Shown here piece after piece: positions 19,569 through 28,331 of a stretch of 64,000 nt of DNA. Location of the stretch: NCBI RefSeq assembly GCF_003573545.1, contig NZ_QWET01000016.1, positions 62,001-126,000 of the forward strand, read 5' to 3'. The DNA is from Mariniphaga sediminis (GTDB lineage: Bacteria > Bacteroidota > Bacteroidia > Bacteroidales > Prolixibacteraceae). The position numbers were made by a program, and so were the translations under genes. Numbering within the stretch: position 1 is the first letter of the stretch; every line of letters starts with the position of its first letter. The notes under the pieces are model-generated. The model did not search any database. It was not told where the DNA came from and saw only the letters and a program-made list of their open reading frames with translations.

Positions 19569-20906
19569 TTACCCTAATTTATCTAATTCCCGTTCAATAC
19601 GGTGCACAAGGTAAAAAGGCAGATTAACAAGAGTAAACGTTTTACCTGCAATAGTTTTGGCTTTTTGTATCAGGTATTCCCCCTGATAGACTCTTACTGC
19701 AATATTATGAGGGGCACGATCCATAAACTGGTGCAACGATTTTAATTTTCCAATACTTCCTGATTTTACTTCAATGGGAATAAGTTTTCCCCGCCAGGGT
19801 AAAATATAATCTACCTCGGCACTTGATTCTTTTTTGTCGCGTACCCAAAAATTTAGTTTGTTACTAATCGAGAAATTGGATGCAAGCAACTCCTGTCCGG
19901 TAATGTGCTCGGCAATAATTCCCCGGTATGTATCACCAATATTTTCGTTAAAAACGAGCTCGCCCATCAATCCCCGTGCATGATTAATCAATCCGGTATC
20001 TAACACATGGAGACGGGGTTTCCTTTTCAGTGAAGGAGAAGCCGGTACTTCCAAATTGGTGCTTGGATATACCATCCGTATCAACATTGTTTTTTCGAGG
20101 GCACGAAATGCTTCTCGCATTTCTCTTGAACGGTATTCCGAATTTCCAAATTTTTCAAATGTAACTTTAGTCCCACCCATAGCAAAAGCATGGTCAATGA
20201 CATGCCTGATGTAAGTTGTTTGTGCTGAAGAAACAGCATACTTTTCCACATCGTCGGAAAAAGAATAGATTAGACTATCGTAAACCGAACCGAGTGAAGA
20301 AATATCGGTACCGTTTGCATAAAGTTTCAATACCTCGGGCATTCCACCAATGGTGGCATATTTTTTAAATTGTGCCGTAAGCTGGTTATGCAAAAAAACC
20401 GGGACTTCAGGTCTTTCAAGCTCTGCTGCCAATAATTCGTTATTGGTGGCATAGAGGAATTCCTTAAATGAACAGGGGTGAATTGCCAGGTATTCCACCC
20501 TGCCCACCGGGGAGGAAATTTTTCTGTCCATTATGCTCTCTAAAAGTGACCCCGCAGTTATTACGAACAGTTCATTAGCCTCTTCATAAAAATACCTGAG
20601 AAGAGCTATCGCTTTTGGAGAGTTCTGAATTTCATCAATAAAAATAAGGGTTGTCCCCCCGTTTCTCTTCTTCCCTGCATAAATAAACAGGTTAGTGATT
20701 AAATCAAGGAAAGGATAGTTCTGCTCAAATAATTGTCTTTCTTCTTCTTTTTCAAGATTAAGGTAAATGTACTGGTCAAACTGTTCAGAAAACATATTTA
20801 TAGCAGTAGTTTTCCCTACCTGCCTGGCACCTCTTATGACCAGAGGTTTTCGGAACTCCTTACTTTTCCATTTTACCAGTTCTTCTAATATTTCCCGCTT
20901 AAACAT
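19569..20906 (-). CDS. AAA-type ATPase with DUF4143 C-terminal domain
   Basis: 445 residues from the ATG at 20906 (MFKREILEELVKW). An open frame continues upstream only because the 33-bp tandem repeats there contain no stop. The N-terminal AAA domain has Walker A GARQVGKTTAINMF (~35), Walker B TLIFIDEIQNSPKA and sensor-1 ITAGSLLES. The C-terminal half is DUF4143, including FEKFGNSEYRSREMREAFRALEK, then LHVLDTGLINHARG and a restriction-nuclease-like ending AEVDYILPWRGKLIPIEVKSG. These stand-alone ATPases are widespread in this phylum and their substrate is unknown to me. The DxxEVK-like end (AEVDYI with IEVKSG) recalls PD-(D/E)XK nucleases. Confidence 0.9.
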   Translation of the reverse strand: MFKREILEELVKWKSKEFRKPLVIRGARQVGKTTAINMFSEQFDQYIYLNLEKEEERQLFEQNYPFLDLITNLFIYAGKKRNGGTTLIFIDEIQNSPKAIALLRYFYEEANELFVITAGSLLESIMDRKISSPVGRVEYLAIHPCSFKEFLYATNNELLAAELERPEVPVFLHNQLTAQFKKYATIGGMPEVLKLYANGTDISSLGSVYDSLIYSFSDDVEKYAVSSAQTTYIRHVIDHAFAMGGTKVTFEKFGNSEYRSREMREAFRALEKTMLIRMVYPSTNLEVPASPSLKRKPRLHVLDTGLINHARGLMGELVFNENIGDTYRGIIAEHITGQELLASNFSISNKLNFWVRDKKESSAEVDYILPWRGKLIPIEVKSGSIGKLKSLHQFMDRAPHNIAVRVYQGEYLIQKAKTIAGKTFTLVNLPFYLVHRIERELDKLG

Positions 20907-20919
20907 TTTTACTTTTGTA

Positions 20920-21018
20920 CTAAAGTGAGGGTTAAAAATACAAAAAGTTGTATTAAAGTGAGGGTTAATTATAAAAAATATTGTATTACAGAGAGGGATA
21001 CATTTTATACCAGACAAA
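20920..21018 (-). repeat. Three 33-bp tandem repeats (iteron-like) upstream of the DUF4143 ATPase
   Basis: Units start at 20953 (TTAAAGTGAGGGTTA) and 20986 (TTACAGAGAGGGATA), with a first unit at 20920 (CTAAAGTGAGGGTTA). The spacing is exactly 33 bp twice. Each core is preceded by TTGTA or TTTGTA. The third unit is the most diverged. The block ends 13 bp before the ATPase ATG, so it covers the promoter and leader of that gene. A 33-bp period is about three DNA turns, which fits binding of a repeated protein on one face. Confidence 0.75.
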
Positions 21019-21420: not shown

Positions 21421-22530
21421 ATGCCAATCTACATGGATCGTCATGATGTTTCAGAAGAGGTAACTGCTGAAGCTGTTGCAAAACTTCATCAAGAAGATTT
21501 GAAAATCCAGCATAAATTTAACTGCAGGGGATTAACATATTGGTTTGATGATAAAAGAAAGACTGCATTTTGTCTTATCGAAGCACCAGACGAACAGAGC
21601 CTTATTAATATGCATAACAGCGCCCATGGTGTAGTTCCTCATCGTATTATTGAAGTTGAACCCAGTATCGTGGAATCATTTTTAGGAAGAATAGAAGATC
21701 CTGAAAAATCAAAAAACGTCAGCCTGAATATCATTAATGAACCTGCATTCAGAACCATTATGATGACGGGGCTTGAGCAATTATCCTATCTGGATACGGA
21801 AATTCAGTCTTTGAAAGAATCTATAAATAAAATCAATCAATCAATTTCCGCTACAATCAAATCTTTCAAGGGAAGGGTAGTTAATCAAACTTCAGATTAT
21901 TTTCTGGTTTCTTTTGAATCTGTCTCACATGCCATTAACTGTGCCGTTCAGGTACAAACGGATTTTAATCAGTGGAAAGAACAAAATAAGTTGGATAATA
22001 TTGAGCTGAAAACTGGATTAAGCGCTGGTGTTCCTGTTACTGATAAAGAATCTGTTTTTGAAGATACCATTCAAAGGGCTGAACGTTTGTACTATATTTC
22101 AAGGGCAAAAATTGTGATCACAAACGAGGTTAAAGAGCTATACCAGAGCGAGAATCAAAATGTTTCTTTTCAACCCGATATTATAAGTCCAATATCGCCA
22201 AATGATGAGGATTTACTCCATAATTTAATGGACTACATGGAATCAATCTGGACTAAGCATTCATTTCACTCTAACGATTTAAGCAAAGAATTAAATTTAA
22301 GTAAATCCAATCTATACCGGAAAATGACCTCAATTACCGGAGAATCGCCTAATGCATTTATCAAAGAATTCAGGCTTAACAAGGCTTTAAGTTATATTCG
22401 CTCAAAAAAAGGGAACATTTCAGAAATTGCCTATGAAACAGGCTTTGGAAGTCCCTCATATTTTACAAAATGCTTTCAACAAAAATATGGTGTAAGCCCT
22501 ACCGACTACCTTCATTTACTGGACATTTAG
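21421..22530 (+). CDS. Fusion regulator: DUF4242 (nickel-binding-like) + degenerate cyclase-like domain + AraC HTH
   Basis: 369 residues with three parts. Residues 1-~85 match the DUF4242 family (YMDRHDVSEEVTAEAVAKLH, LTYWFDDKRKTAFCLIEAP, HGVVPHRIIEVEP), whose Streptomyces member SCO4226 binds nickel. Residues ~115-250 resemble a class III nucleotide cyclase domain (FKGRVVNQTSDYFLVSFES, IELKTGLSAGVPV, QRAERLYYISRAKIVIT), but the metal-binding Asp motif is not visible, so it is probably a sensory relic. Residues ~265-365 are an AraC/XylS double helix-turn-helix ending YFTKCFQQKYGVSPTDY. No membrane segment, so it is cytoplasmic. It likely controls the cupin and flavoprotein genes downstream (inference from position). 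Confidence 0.85.
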   Translation: MPIYMDRHDVSEEVTAEAVAKLHQEDLKIQHKFNCRGLTYWFDDKRKTAFCLIEAPDEQSLINMHNSAHGVVPHRIIEVEPSIVESFLGRIEDPEKSKNVSLNIINEPAFRTIMMTGLEQLSYLDTEIQSLKESINKINQSISATIKSFKGRVVNQTSDYFLVSFESVSHAINCAVQVQTDFNQWKEQNKLDNIELKTGLSAGVPVTDKESVFEDTIQRAERLYYISRAKIVITNEVKELYQSENQNVSFQPDIISPISPNDEDLLHNLMDYMESIWTKHSFHSNDLSKELNLSKSNLYRKMTSITGESPNAFIKEFRLNKALSYIRSKKGNISEIAYETGFGSPSYFTKCFQQKYGVSPTDYLHLLDI

Positions 22531-22727
22531 TACAATCCAGAATAAAAGACAATTTTGTATTTATTTTGAATCAATCTTACAAGCATTTGAATAAAATGTA
22601 GTAACACCTGAGCACTTTTCTGCCGTATATTTGATTTTCTATAACAGTCACAATCATCTAATCAGTAGCTGACCGCAACAAAGGAAATCTGTTCAGGATT
22701 ACGAATGAATCATTTTAACCAGGTACT

Positions 22728-22883
22728 ATGAACAGAACATTATTTGAACGATTAGAAGGAAGAGAAGGCATCGCAAAAATTGGGAATGATGCGGTTGAAA
22801 ACCACATGAACAACCCGGGAGTGAGTACACGGTTTTTGTCTTGCAAAGAAAATCAGGAGGATTTGGCAGTAATATTTAAATAA
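22728..22883 (+). pseudogene. Truncated-hemoglobin N-terminal fragment
   Basis: A 51-codon frame starting MNRTLFERLEGREGIAKIGN and continuing DAVENHMNNPGVSTRF matches the N-terminal helices of group-1 truncated globins (TLYERLGG-EGI pattern, then DN-H--NP). It ends after LAVIFK with no E-helix, no distal residues and no proximal His, about one third of the family length. It cannot bind heme as it stands. The downstream part seems to have been deleted and joined to the 5' region of the cupin gene 17 bp further on. Confidence 0.7.
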
Positions 22884-22900: not shown

Positions 22901-23287
22901 ATGAAAATTGCAAAAGAAAACATTGAAGTAAAAATGGAAATTCCTGGCGCCGTTGTACGCCAAAGAACAGATTTTGGTGATGCATCAGGATTAGGTAAAA
23001 TTAGCGGTGAGTATTTTAGCCTTTCTGAAGGGGTCGATACTACTCCTCTTTTTATCGGACTTGAAGGAAACCAATGCCAATGTCCCCACTGGGGATATGT
23101 TCTGAAAGGTGAGATTACAACTACTGATGCAGAGGGCAATCAGGAAACAGTTACCACAAATGATTTATTCTACTGGCCTGCCGGGCATAATGTTAAGGTC
23201 AATGCTGATGCAGAAATTATCATGTTCAGCCCACAGCATGAACACAGTGAGGTAATTAATCACATGATTGAAAAGACGAAAGGATAA
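22901..23287 (+). CDS. Single-domain cupin protein
   Basis: 128 residues, cytoplasmic, with a strong ribosome binding site GGAGG 9-13 bp before the ATG. Cupin motif 1 is seen around CPHWGYVLKGEI and motif 2 around DLFYWPAGHNVKV, with His residues at the usual metal positions and a His-rich SPQHEHSEV end. Cupins of this size are isomerases, dioxygenases or small-molecule sensors; the substrate cannot be told. It is 4 bp from the next start at 23292, so it is almost certainly translated together with the flavoprotein. Confidence 0.85.
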   Translation: MKIAKENIEVKMEIPGAVVRQRTDFGDASGLGKISGEYFSLSEGVDTTPLFIGLEGNQCQCPHWGYVLKGEITTTDAEGNQETVTTNDLFYWPAGHNVKVNADAEIIMFSPQHEHSEVINHMIEKTKG

Positions 23288-23291
23288 TACG

Positions 23292-24683
23292 ATGGAAACA
23301 AAAATTAAAAATCTGCAAGAAGACATCTTGCAGGAATTTGAAACAAAAATCAGGGGAGAGTTAGTATTTCCCGACAATCAGAAGTACGAAGAAACCCGTA
23401 AAGTCTATAACGGAATGATCGATAAGAAGCCGGGGCTTATTGTAAAATGTGTCGATGTTGCAGACGTAATTTCTGCAGTAACTTTTGGCAGAGAAAATAA
23501 TTTGCTCGTTTCGGTTCGCGGAGGAGGTCATAATGCCGGGGGGCTTGGAATTTGCGATGACGGATTGGTCATTGATTTATCAGGAATCAAATTTATTCGG
23601 GTTGACACATCGGATAATACGGTACGTGTTGGAGGCGGCAATGTTTGGGGAGAAGTAGATCATGCAACTCATCCTTTTGGCCTGGCTGTGCCCGCTGGAA
23701 TAATTTCAACAACCGGTGTCGGCGGATTAACCTTGGGCGGTGGCGTTGGTCATTTATCCAGAAATTTTGGATTGACTATTGATAATCTTCTTGAAGCGGA
23801 CATGGTTTTAGCTGACGGAAGTTTTGTGACTGTAAATAATGAAAAGAATACCGATCTTTTCTGGGCAATAAGGGGAGGAGGAGGAAATTTTGGTATTGTA
23901 ACTTCCTTTAAATTCCAGGCTCATGAAGTAAACACAGTTTATGGCGGACCAACATTATGGCCTATTGAAAAAACGGAAGAAATAATGGAATGGTACGATG
24001 GTTTTCTTCATAACGCCCCCGATGAATTAAATGGATTTGTCGCCACTTTGGTTATTCCGGGGCCACCTTTTCCGCCTCATTTACACAACAAGAAATTTTG
24101 CGGAATTGTCTGGTGCTACTCTGGTGACGTAAAAAAAGGACCTGAAGTTTTTGAGCCAGTTATAGCCATGAATCCATTGTTTGAACATGTGGGAGAAATG
24201 CCTTATCCTTCAGTACAAACTTTGTTTGACGGACTCTTGCCTCCAGGCATGCAATGGTACTGGCGAGCTGATTTTTTCAATGACATTCCCGCTGATGCAG
24301 CGGCTCTTCATAAAAAATTCGGTTCAGAAATTCCAACACCACTTTCGCAAATGCATTTGTATCCAATAAGTGGCGCGGCTGGCAGAGTTGGGAAAACGGA
24401 AACTCCCTGGGCATATCGCGATGCAAAATATGCCGGCGTATTTGTTGGTATTGATCCGGATCCTGTTAATGCAGAAAAAATTACAAAGTGGGCTAAAGAT
24501 TACTGGAATGCATTGCACCCATATTCTTCAGGGGGAGCCTATTTAAACTTTATCATGAATGAGGGACAGGAACGGATTAAAGCAAGTTACAAGGATAATT
24601 ATGAGCGATTAAGTCAAATCAAAAAGAAGTATGATCCCGCCAATTTTTTCCGGGTAAATCAAAATATTGTTCCGGCTGAGTAA
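23292..24683 (+). CDS. FAD-linked oxidase of the berberine-bridge (BBE) family
   Basis: 463 residues from the ATG at 23292 (METKIKNLQED), preferred over a frame extension that overlaps the cupin gene. The PCMH-type FAD domain shows VRGGGHNAGGLG (the His that bonds FAD covalently), STTGVGGLTLGGGVGHLSRNFG and DLFWAIRGGGGNFGIVTSF. The C-terminal YDPANFFRVNQNI is the BBE signature. The second, Cys-linked FAD attachment of plant enzymes is absent here, so single covalent attachment via His is expected. No signal peptide. These enzymes oxidise sugars or aromatic alcohols. Substrate unknown. Confidence 0.92.
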   Translation: METKIKNLQEDILQEFETKIRGELVFPDNQKYEETRKVYNGMIDKKPGLIVKCVDVADVISAVTFGRENNLLVSVRGGGHNAGGLGICDDGLVIDLSGIKFIRVDTSDNTVRVGGGNVWGEVDHATHPFGLAVPAGIISTTGVGGLTLGGGVGHLSRNFGLTIDNLLEADMVLADGSFVTVNNEKNTDLFWAIRGGGGNFGIVTSFKFQAHEVNTVYGGPTLWPIEKTEEIMEWYDGFLHNAPDELNGFVATLVIPGPPFPPHLHNKKFCGIVWCYSGDVKKGPEVFEPVIAMNPLFEHVGEMPYPSVQTLFDGLLPPGMQWYWRADFFNDIPADAAALHKKFGSEIPTPLSQMHLYPISGAAGRVGKTETPWAYRDAKYAGVFVGIDPDPVNAEKITKWAKDYWNALHPYSSGGAYLNFIMNEGQERIKASYKDNYERLSQIKKKYDPANFFRVNQNIVPAE

Positions 24684-24880: not shown

Positions 24881-25010
24881 TCAATTGAATCATAATAAAA
24901 GACATAAATGTCTTTTATATCTACGGATTAATTTGTAACTTGTTTAATATTTGAACTTAACCCCAATTACATGATAATCAGATGAATTGTTTAATGTAAA
25001 ATCAGTCATC

Positions 25011-26708
25011 ATGAAACTCAAAACTATTCTTTTTTTATTAAACATTTGGATTATTGGAGATAAAGATCCTTCCAATATCTCCTATGGTTCAATTTTATCC
25101 TCTCTATCTCAGGCGAAGTCTGAGGTTGAACTTTTTGATGGACTGGGCTCATATAAATGCAGCTTAAGTGAATTTTCTTCAAATGCTCAGGATTACTTGA
25201 ATCAGGGTTTTATTTGGTTGCAATCCTTTAACCATGATGAAGCAATTCGCTTGTTCACAAAAGCAACAGAAATTGATCCTAATTGCGCAATTGCATGGTG
25301 GGCGATATCGTATGCTCAAGGACCAAATTATAATGATCCATTCATGACGGAGCAAAGGAATCAAGCTTCGTGGGATGCATTGCAGAAAGCTATAAAACTT
25401 TTAGAATCTGCATCACCTATAGAAAGAGACCTCATTGAAACATTGAAAACCCGATATGAGAATCCATTCCCAGCAGATCGTTCAAAACTGGAAAAAGCCT
25501 TTGCTGAATCAATGGCAAAAGTTTGGAAGAAATACCCTGAAAATCCGGACGTTGGAGCAATATATGCCGAATCAATGATGCAAATCAGACCTTGGGGTTT
25601 ATACACTACTGACCGCGAACCTGTAGAAGGCACGGAATTTATTGTAGAGACACTGGAACAAGTTCTTAATTTGAACCCAAATCATCCCGGAGCATGTCAC
25701 TTATACATACATGCAGTTGAACAAGGTAAGATTCCTGAGAAAGCGCTTGCAGTTGCTGAACGTTTAGGCAACATGGTTCCTGCCAGCGGACACATGATTC
25801 ATATGCCTTCGCACATTTATACCAGAGTAAACATGTGGGATCGTTCGATTATTCAAAACGAATTAGCCATGGAGGCGGATATCCGGTATCGAAAGATTTC
25901 TCCAAATCAGGGAATTCAACATATGTATATGGTACATAATAATCATATTCTTTCATATTCTGCAATGATGATAGGACATAAAAATAAAGCTCTTGATGCA
26001 TCCCGTCATATGTGGACCGATATACCCAAGGATAAACTCAAGATGCTCACGCCTGACATTGATATTTGGATGTGTTCTGTTTACGATGTGCAAAAGCGCT
26101 TTGGCCTTTGGGATGAACTACTTGAAGAACCTGCACCTCCAGAATTTATGCCTATAACTTCTGCTATGTGGCGGGCACATCGTGCTATTGCATATGCCGC
26201 TAAAAAGAATTTTGATGCTGCAGAAACAGAGTATGCTGAGTTTAAAGAATTATACAACACTACTCCTCCACAGGAATTGTTATTTCCGGGATGGACTGAG
26301 GAGTCATATCGAAAACGTTTGGATCCGATTCTTCATTTTGTTCCCGGTGAAATTGCACTACAAAAAGAAGATTATGCACTTGCCATTGAACATTTGAAAA
26401 AGGCAGTGTTGGCAGAAGATGAATTAGGTTTTGGTGGAGAGCCACCTGAATATCTCCAACCAATCAGACATACTCTGGGTGCCGTTTATTTTAAAGCTGA
26501 AAAATTCGAAGCTGCGGAACAAGTGTATCGCGAAGATCTTGAAGAGTTTCCCGGAAATGGATGGTCATTGTATGGATTAAGCAGGGCCCTTGATGCACAG
26601 GGTAAATCAACAGAAGCGGACATTGTAGAAAGACAGTTCCTAACTGCTTGGGCAGAAGCAGATGTTCCACTCCTTAAAACAACATGTGAATGTATTAAGG
26701 ACATGTAA
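25011..26708 (+). CDS. Tetratricopeptide-repeat protein with N-terminal signal
   Basis: 565 residues from the ATG at 25011 (MKLKTILFLLNIWII); a TTG at 24987 would only add residues before the signal. TPR-like helical pairs recur, for example DYLNQGFIWLQSFNHDEAIR, LFTKATEIDPNCAIAWWAI and HPGACHLYIHAVEQGKIPEK near 85-260, and LYGLSRALDAQGKSTEAD at the end. The central part has a HMIHMPSHIYTRVNMW motif with several His residues that recurs in this TPR subgroup. Probably periplasmic and a protein-interaction scaffold. The natural partner is unknown, and it is separated by 460 bp from the next gene. Confidence 0.8.
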   Translation: MKLKTILFLLNIWIIGDKDPSNISYGSILSSLSQAKSEVELFDGLGSYKCSLSEFSSNAQDYLNQGFIWLQSFNHDEAIRLFTKATEIDPNCAIAWWAISYAQGPNYNDPFMTEQRNQASWDALQKAIKLLESASPIERDLIETLKTRYENPFPADRSKLEKAFAESMAKVWKKYPENPDVGAIYAESMMQIRPWGLYTTDREPVEGTEFIVETLEQVLNLNPNHPGACHLYIHAVEQGKIPEKALAVAERLGNMVPASGHMIHMPSHIYTRVNMWDRSIIQNELAMEADIRYRKISPNQGIQHMYMVHNNHILSYSAMMIGHKNKALDASRHMWTDIPKDKLKMLTPDIDIWMCSVYDVQKRFGLWDELLEEPAPPEFMPITSAMWRAHRAIAYAAKKNFDAAETEYAEFKELYNTTPPQELLFPGWTEESYRKRLDPILHFVPGEIALQKEDYALAIEHLKKAVLAEDELGFGGEPPEYLQPIRHTLGAVYFKAEKFEAAEQVYREDLEEFPGNGWSLYGLSRALDAQGKSTEADIVERQFLTAWAEADVPLLKTTCECIKDM

Positions 26709-27170: not shown

Positions 27171-28331
27171 ATGCTTTTATTTTTATCCATTACAGGTATT
27201 TTTTTGTCATTAATTTTACTGTATTTCAATGCGAAGAAATACACATCTACCATCTACCTGAGTTTATTCTTTTTATTTATTAGCCTTTATGGTTTTTATC
27301 AGTACATTTTACTGTATTCCAAATCAGTAACACTTATCAGTCTTTTCCTTTTTAATTTATCGGTTGCAGGCTCTCCCGTTTATTTAATCGGGCCGATGCT
27401 ATTTTGGTACACAAGAAGTGTTTTAACAGATGATGCGAAACTGAAAAGAAGCGATTTTTGGCATTTTATCCCAGCAGTTATCTTTTTTATTTCAGCTTTA
27501 CCAAATTCCTTTGTTCCCTGGCACGAAAAAGTAGAAGCTGCTGAAACTGTTATTCATGACCAGAGCTACATTATGATTTACAAAGCCACATTATTAAGTG
27601 AAATTTTCTCTTCTGTTACAATTTTCATAACACGTCTCTTCCTGGTTTTAGGATATACAATATGGTCTATTGGCTTATTCATAAACTATCTGGTAAAGAA
27701 AAAATCATCTGCAGTTTTGTCGAAACAACAATTTATGAGAAAATGGTTGTGTTATTTACTGGGATTTATGTTGATTTTGGTTGTCAGCCAGATGGCCCTC
27801 GTCATTAAAAGTTTTGAAATGCATTTTTCTACCGTATTCTTTACATTTAATATCATACGTGTTGTATCAGTAGTCGGGCTTCTTGGATTGCTTATCTCGC
27901 CATTCTTTTTTCCAACCATTCTTTATGGGTTACCCCGAATGTCTAAAACAAATGAGACAAAGCCGTCCTTTTATTCTTTTGAATCCGATTATCTTCAATC
28001 CATAGGGAAAAAATCAGATTCTGTTATGGAAGAGCTGCAGCTTTATCTGGAACCCGATTGTAATCTTGCCTTTTTTTCAAAGCAAATTAATATTCCAGCT
28101 CATCATCTTTCATATTATTTCAGGGAGGTAAAAAAACAACGTTTTAATGATTTCAGAAATGAGTGGCGAATTAACCATGCAAAAGCCCTTATTCAGGAGG
28201 GAAAGGCAAATGAGATTACCTTGGAAGCCATTGGGACGCTTTCCGGATTCTCATCGCGAAATGCATTTATTACTGACTTTAAAAAGCTGGAAGGAGAATC
28301 TCCAGGCACCTATGCTGCCCGCTTCAATTAA
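27171..28331 (+). CDS. Membrane-anchored AraC-family transcriptional regulator, paralog 1
   Basis: 386 residues. About seven hydrophobic segments fill residues 1-235 (for example MLLFLSITGIFLSLILLYF, LFFLFISLYGFYQYILLY and VSVVGLLGLLISPFFFPTIL). A cytoplasmic AraC/XylS helix-turn-helix domain follows (~275-385; FNDFRNEWRINHAKALIQEG, GTLSGFSSRNAFITDFKKLEG). One-component sensors of this design detect a signal in or at the membrane and act on nearby genes. It is about three-quarters identical to the gene at 29851. Just downstream lie two inverted repeats and a FISUMP lipoprotein gene, its likely target. Confidence 0.9.
   Translation: MLLFLSITGIFLSLILLYFNAKKYTSTIYLSLFFLFISLYGFYQYILLYSKSVTLISLFLFNLSVAGSPVYLIGPMLFWYTRSVLTDDAKLKRSDFWHFIPAVIFFISALPNSFVPWHEKVEAAETVIHDQSYIMIYKATLLSEIFSSVTIFITRLFLVLGYTIWSIGLFINYLVKKKSSAVLSKQQFMRKWLCYLLGFMLILVVSQMALVIKSFEMHFSTVFFTFNIIRVVSVVGLLGLLISPFFFPTILYGLPRMSKTNETKPSFYSFESDYLQSIGKKSDSVMEELQLYLEPDCNLAFFSKQINIPAHHLSYYFREVKKQRFNDFRNEWRINHAKALIQEGKANEITLEAIGTLSGFSSRNAFITDFKKLEGESPGTYAARFN

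Follow-up and report, generated by a model that had tools for sequence, protein, structure and literature searches.

What does a protein do that joins a SCO4226-like domain and a cyclase-like domain to an AraC-type helix-turn-helix, and which genes does it address? The question is raised by an open reading frame at positions 21421-22530 (plus strand) of the window, by which we mean the whole 64,000-nucleotide stretch of Mariniphaga sediminis DNA analysed here. We found no description of a SCO4226-like/pseudocyclase/AraC fusion family in an open-licence library, where searches for DUF4242 with AraC, for pseudocyclase-AraC and for globin-BBE-AraC also gave nothing relevant. The answer that we favor, and consider likely, is that the protein acts as a local one-component activator of the AraC type, which would control the adjoining operon via direct repeats and use a dead cyclase for relay and dimerization.

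Domain layout and family

The reading frame is open from its ATG across 369 codons. PF14026 (SCO4226-like, formerly DUF4242), a ferredoxin-like domain, matches residues 4-79 (21430-21657, plus strand; E = 6.1e-19, 68.4 bits against a cut-off of 28.5) and carries conserved D6, H8, H23, D26, C51, H65 and H69. At the other end, HTH_18 matches residues 287-364 (22279-22512, plus strand; E = 2.8e-19, 69.6 bits against a cut-off of 33.6), and HTH_AraC reaches 62.2 bits against a cut-off of 26.6; by these curated cut-offs for the C-terminal helix-turn-helix, also seen in relatives, the predicted protein is a member of the AraC/XylS transcription regulators. Between these domains, at about residues 106-248 (21736-22164, plus strand), no Pfam cyclase model matches the window protein, the sole Pfam hint being Cas10-Cmr2_palm2 at 149-223, which stays under its cut-off (E = 0.0036). 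A profile built from 35 relatives matches Ma1120 (4wp3) in the PDB with E = 2.1e-16 over profile positions 84-241, and among solved structures it also matches SCO4226 (E = 4e-10) and AraC domains. In an AlphaFold2 model of the regulator (mean pLDDT 83.9; confidence is low at 92-108, where the first domain gives way to the second), Foldseek retrieves adenylyl cyclases (4wp8 at E = 2e-7), and VIA-align superposes residues 109-271 on CyaB (3r5g) with Z = 17.2 and an rmsd of 2.8 Å over 148 residues. Cyclases fill the best 50 Foldseek and VIA matches, and SCO4226 structures are absent from them. An earlier note on this DNA had read three domains in this single frame; two of them exceed their Pfam cut-offs, and the middle one, on whose fold that reading could have foundered, comes out as a cyclase fold in both profile and model.

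The three-domain layout is not accidental, since a survey of the combination finds co-linear proteins in many genomes of the phylum. In an alignment of 35 co-linear relatives, the AraC domain is present in all 35 and PF14026 in 34 (E of 0.1 or better). Of 140 genomes belonging to the same family as the window, 37 contain a match to the first 280 residues, which in 31 reaches E = 3e-15 or better, and a collection scan yields eleven loci, including ones from Gillisia, Pricia, Gramella, Algoriphagus, Draconibacterium and MAGs. PF14026 itself is found in 44 of 395 Bacteroidota genomes, from which 20 stretches were inspected. The genome studied here holds a second copy, 51% identical, that adjoins an intact globin gene (the L061 locus). 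Judged by sequence, the regulator is a member of a Bacteroidota family of co-linear proteins spread across the phylum. Directly upstream of it, on the opposite strand, lies an AAA_14/DUF4143 ATPase gene (19569-21017), which has no counterpart among the neighbors at the other family loci compared.

The cyclase-fold and SCO4226-like domains

At the positions that we take, from standard knowledge of class III cyclases, to be catalytic, the window protein has G117, N155, D159, S211, Q218 and R222. Asp1 is thus replaced by Gly, the Lys by Asn, the adenine Asp by Ser and the transition-state Asn by Gln; the second metal position is still Asp, without flanking glycines, and R222 is the retained Arg. 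The earlier suggestion that the metal-binding Asp motif is lost holds for Asp1 and fails for the second metal position. We compared 68 AraC-fused proteins with six unfused relatives that end after the cyclase domain, namely L131 from Bacteroidota and five plasmid proteins of Rhizobiaceae and Azospirillum; because they match only in part, L049 and the protein of L084 are omitted from this 74-row alignment, which merges the identical pairs L045/L066 and L046/L068. Asp1, Lys, Asp2, Asn/Gln and Arg are all present in 2/68 fused versus 6/6 unfused proteins, and those two fused proteins lack only the adenine Asp, and their metal loop is one residue longer. Once the adenine Asp is included, the set is complete in 0/68 fused and 6/6 unfused proteins, and a strict GDG plus Asp1 occurs in none of the 68. 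By profile, model and residue comparison, the middle domain is a predicted class III cyclase fold that lacks the catalytic set. The non-catalytic character that the earlier note had proposed for it is borne out at the level of residues, as is the description of a one-component regulator, with a sensor-like domain, this cyclase fold and an AraC helix-turn-helix joined in one protein.

The numbering of the window protein aligns gaplessly with that of SCO4226 from Streptomyces coelicolor through residue 68. The SCO4226 paper names nickel ligands that include H3, H12, H20, H23, E38, D43, S46, E74 and H76, and calls only the D43/S46/H76 site conserved (PMC4186839); another paper reports SCO4226 as down-regulated under oxidative stress (PMC4991794). 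Among the nickel ligands listed, H23 and D43 alone have counterparts in the regulator, and S46, H76, E74, H3, H12, H20 and E38 have none; at the Ni-1 site D43 is present, with R46 and I77 instead of S46 and H76. The NF033706 nickel-binding equivalog scores 36.3 bits against a curated cut-off of 125. The dimer core of SCO4226 (M5, W41, Y50, L52 and V78) recurs in the regulator as M5, W41, F50, L52 and V79. Moreover, D6, H8, H23, D26, C51 and H65 are near-invariant, each being found in 64-67 of the 68 AraC-fused proteins and kept in 20-21 of 21 PF14026 domain copies, a sample that partly overlaps the 68 and includes two double-domain proteins. Strand alternation suggests that the residues of this Asp/His/Cys cluster should face the helices, and a family-wide ligand site there is more plausible than the SCO4226 nickel sites. 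These findings argue against the ‘nickel-binding’ label that databases attach to relatives of the SCO4226-like domain. The double-domain proteins (L132:4986-5642 and L133:4773-5519) have tandem SCO4226-like domains behind an apparent N-terminal signal or lipoprotein peptide; by their sequences, these relatives of the sensor domain are probably exported.

Several signals and activities could be imagined for such a protein. Catalysis is not expected of the regulator, despite D159, because Asp1, Lys, the adenine Asp and Asn are replaced; a still active cyclase domain, which would make the protein a bifunctional enzyme and transcription factor, has the Asp at the second metal position and the retained Arg to recommend it, yet with Gly117, Asn155, Ser211 and Gln218 at the remaining positions we give it almost no chance. 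The degenerate pocket could also bind a nucleotide or cyclic nucleotide as a signal that gates the regulator. Its fold is intact, the window protein keeps D159 and R222, and Arg occupies the latter position in 48 of the 68 AraC-fused proteins, but in the family neither the Lys nor the adenine-Asp position is constrained, which speaks against conservation of a purine site and leaves this idea fairly unlikely in our estimation. Sensing of nickel, as envisaged in the earlier note, loses its footing with the D43/S46/H76 site, from which D43 alone remains, H23 being the only other ligand matched. More generally, nickel or another divalent metal might bind the SCO4226-like dimer and switch the AraC domain: the regulator matches PF14026, SCO4226 binds nickel with a Kd of about 10 μM (PMC4186839), H23 and D43 are present, and the conserved Asp/His/Cys cluster could bind a metal. 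Nevertheless, R46 and I77 stand at the conserved nickel site, none of 35 aligned relatives has a His at the H76 position and no nickel transport or nickel enzyme genes were seen in the conserved neighborhood, so that we regard a metal switch as quite unlikely, while leaving room for a metal or other ligand at a different site of the SCO4226-like domain.

Downstream operon, operator and promoter

Downstream of the regulator and on the same strand, relatives carry genes for a group 1 truncated globin (PF01152), a cupin and a flavin oxidase. In the window, where all of the following genes lie on the plus strand, the globin gene is a remnant of 51 codons (22728-22883) that matches positions 3-54 of the 127-position family model and then meets a stop; the globin is intact in homologues, including the paralogous L061 locus of the same genome, and has relatives of solved structure. 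The remnant is followed by a cupin gene (22901-23287), a conserved operon member identified by synteny and by a Cupin_2 match slightly under its cut-off (E = 1.1e-5), and by a FAD_binding_4/BBE flavin oxidase gene (23268-24683, with an ATG at 23292) recognized by Pfam. A TPR protein gene (24987-26708), which also comes after the oxidase in L075, L076 and L081, is a possible last member. Among solved structures the oxidase is closest to EncM (E of about 2e-100), an FAD oxygenase of antibiotic biosynthesis; no biosynthetic cluster was recognized around the window regulator. Close downstream, at 27171-28331, lies the gene of a second AraC-type regulator, whose N-terminal half is hydrophobic and membrane-like.

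This arrangement is conserved. The loci of 52 of 72 family proteins contain at least one globin, cupin or BBE gene, all on the regulator's strand, and all three are absent nearby in the other 20, three of which are at contig ends; the 72 include tandems, duplicates (L045/L066 and L046/L068 counted separately) and contig ends. Among the 140 family genomes, 26 have the regulator and a full BBE gene, 5 the regulator only, 2 a BBE gene only and 107 neither (Fisher p = 4e-21, kinship uncorrected).

Searched for motifs, the 220 bp that follow the regulator genes yield TGAACyAAAaTTAC-N7-TGAACtAAAtGTAG, a direct repeat with a 21-bp period. This 34-bp motif scores 21.5 in 27 intergenic regions versus at most 13.9 in 10 dinucleotide-preserving shuffles; a control stretch after the -7 box reaches 15.1 against 13.2-13.9 in mononucleotide shuffles (24 sequences), indicating a slight residual similarity of the intergenic regions that is well under the operator's 21.5. 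The predicted operator of the window (22567-22604, plus strand) comprises TGAATCAATCTTAC at 22567-22580 and TGAATAAAATGTAG at 22588-22601 and scores 27.9 bits with a matrix made without this genome, the next best site in the 64-kb window scoring 11.5. In leave-one-out scoring 22 of 24 sites stay at 11.7 or more, and in 26 of the 40 held-out loci a downstream site exceeds 8.5, the 99th percentile of shuffles; as shuffled sequences reach up to 16.0, the weakest sites must be regarded as uncertain. 

Upstream of the regulator the best score among the 40 held-out loci is 7.8, with none over threshold, a motif search upstream of regulator genes (28 sequences) gave nothing above shuffles, and a weak upstream match (10.8) occurs in a single locus, L121, of the 27 used for discovery. 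The site accompanies the regulator even when the next gene is different (L080, L082 and L083), and L131, the one locus scored whose protein has no DNA-binding domain, gives -8.0. No downstream site exceeds the threshold in 14 of the 40 held-out loci; in several of these a site precedes the cupin or follows the second copy of a tandem regulator pair, and in L079 and L128, as in L065, L055 and L050 of the discovery set, no site over 8.5 was found anywhere on that strand of the locus. Twelve BBE loci away from the regulator (L140-L151) have no clear operator, the best site scoring 14.2 in L150 and no higher than 11.3 in any of the remaining 11. Genome-wide, a pattern search ranks the window site best, with 1 mismatch; matches with 2-3 mismatches are about as common as in the reversed control (10 versus 8), and we therefore claim no further targets in the genome. 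In L116-L120, which belong to one Bacteroidota family, the regulator is often tandem-duplicated and an operator-like site with an altered half-site (TGCAACAAATG) follows the second copy. At L115:4790 a strong operator-like site (26.9) lies upstream of a small reading frame, at a stand-alone PF14026 match located ahead of the regulator gene, which suggests possible autoregulation at that locus.

One study gives TAnnTTTG as the -7 promoter consensus of Bacteroidota (PMC9723704), and in the window such a box (TATATTTG, 22626-22633, plus strand) is found 59 nt past the operator start. Among the 26 held-out loci with a site, 17 have the same box 58 or 59 nt from where the site begins, and 15 of the 25 discovery rows have it at equivalent offsets. 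About 24 bp separate the end of the second repeat from the -7 box, a placement to be expected of an activator in contact with polymerase. A TTTG promoter element has its place at -33, and the window promoter has no TTTG there. Conserved same-strand synteny, the predicted direct-repeat operator and the promoter box at fixed distance all speak for the earlier proposal that the regulator would control the globin remnant, the cupin and the BBE oxidase.

In the activation mechanism that we favor, two protomers would be joined through their SCO4226-like and cyclase-fold domains, and the pair would bind the 21-bp-period direct repeat at 22567-22604, directly upstream of the -7 box. The bound regulator would then turn on the globin, cupin and EncM-like flavin oxidase operon. 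The cyclase-fold domain would no longer make a cyclic nucleotide and would serve as a dimerization and signal-relay module, possibly with a ligand pocket; the most likely entry point of the input would be D6/H8/H23/D26/C51/H65, the conserved cluster in the SCO4226-like domain. In principle a different factor might recognize the motif; direct-repeat binding is mostly a property of AraC-family regulators, according to PMC9723621. The same parts could also form a repressor that leaves the promoter upon ligand binding, which would account for the same operator data, as direct-repeat binding leaves the sign of regulation open. By contrast, a site that stops before the -7 box of a promoter without TTTG at -33 would fit dependence on an activator, and we hold repression to be rather improbable. 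For a widespread Bacteroidota regulator family, a target site, a promoter and an operon are now available for testing, and the inducer of the putatively controlled operon, with its EncM-like flavin oxidase, globin and cupin, can now be screened for by reporter.

Ancestry and comparison with known systems

A tree that we rooted by choice on the rhizobial proteins requires one gain of the AraC domain and is compatible, with weak support, with its gain by an intact cyclase; because the branch support is 56/14 and several long branches meet, we do not claim a single origin of the fusion. Tentatively, it is possible that the fusion descends from a second-messenger cyclase with a SCO4226-like sensor, which acquired an AraC domain and ceased to catalyze, that the Asp/His/Cys cluster, as opposed to the surface nickel sites of SCO4226, is the true sensor site of the PF14026 family and that the sensor now addresses one promoter directly, bypassing cyclic nucleotide. 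The proteins of L078, L081, L130, L125 and L118, which keep most catalytic residues, would be late intermediates in such a passage from enzyme to regulator. More broadly, the cyclase fold would have been retained as a signaling part after catalytic loss, and fused inactive and unfused intact relatives allow the two states to be compared.

The regulator shares with SCO4226 the ferredoxin-like domain, the dimer-core residues and the D6/H8/H23/D26/C51/H65 set, whereas SCO4226 is a stand-alone protein of 82 residues, most of whose nickel ligands are unmatched in the regulator. The two-domain proteins composed of a SCO4226-like domain and a class III cyclase (L131 and those of rhizobial and Azospirillum plasmids) share the regulator's first two domains and their order; identity between the plasmid proteins and L131 is 40-50%, and several of the former are annotated as ‘nickel-binding protein’. 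In contrast to the regulator, they have the full cyclase set, no DNA-binding domain and other neighbors, and L131, the one scored, is without a downstream operator.

The BLUF photoactivated cyclases OaPAC and bPAC place a ferredoxin-like sensor N-terminal to a cyclase dimer, and their Foldseek and VIA matches cover both of the regulator's first two domains. With an rmsd of about 17 Å over both domains and no flavin site shown, only the plan is alike, and the BLUF cyclases are active, unlike the predicted dead cyclase of the regulator. Mycobacterial fusions of class III cyclases also combine a cyclase fold and a helix-turn-helix in one protein, but theirs is of the LuxR type, with an ATPase domain between, whereas the regulator has an AraC domain and an N-terminal SCO4226-like domain. 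Finally, AraC, RhaS and ToxT resemble the regulator in their C-terminal double helix-turn-helix and in a promoter-close direct-repeat operator, which is predicted here; the araI1-I2 spacing is 21 bp. The sensor of AraC/XylS proteins is usually a cupin or another domain, whereas that of the regulator would consist of a SCO4226-like domain and a dead cyclase.
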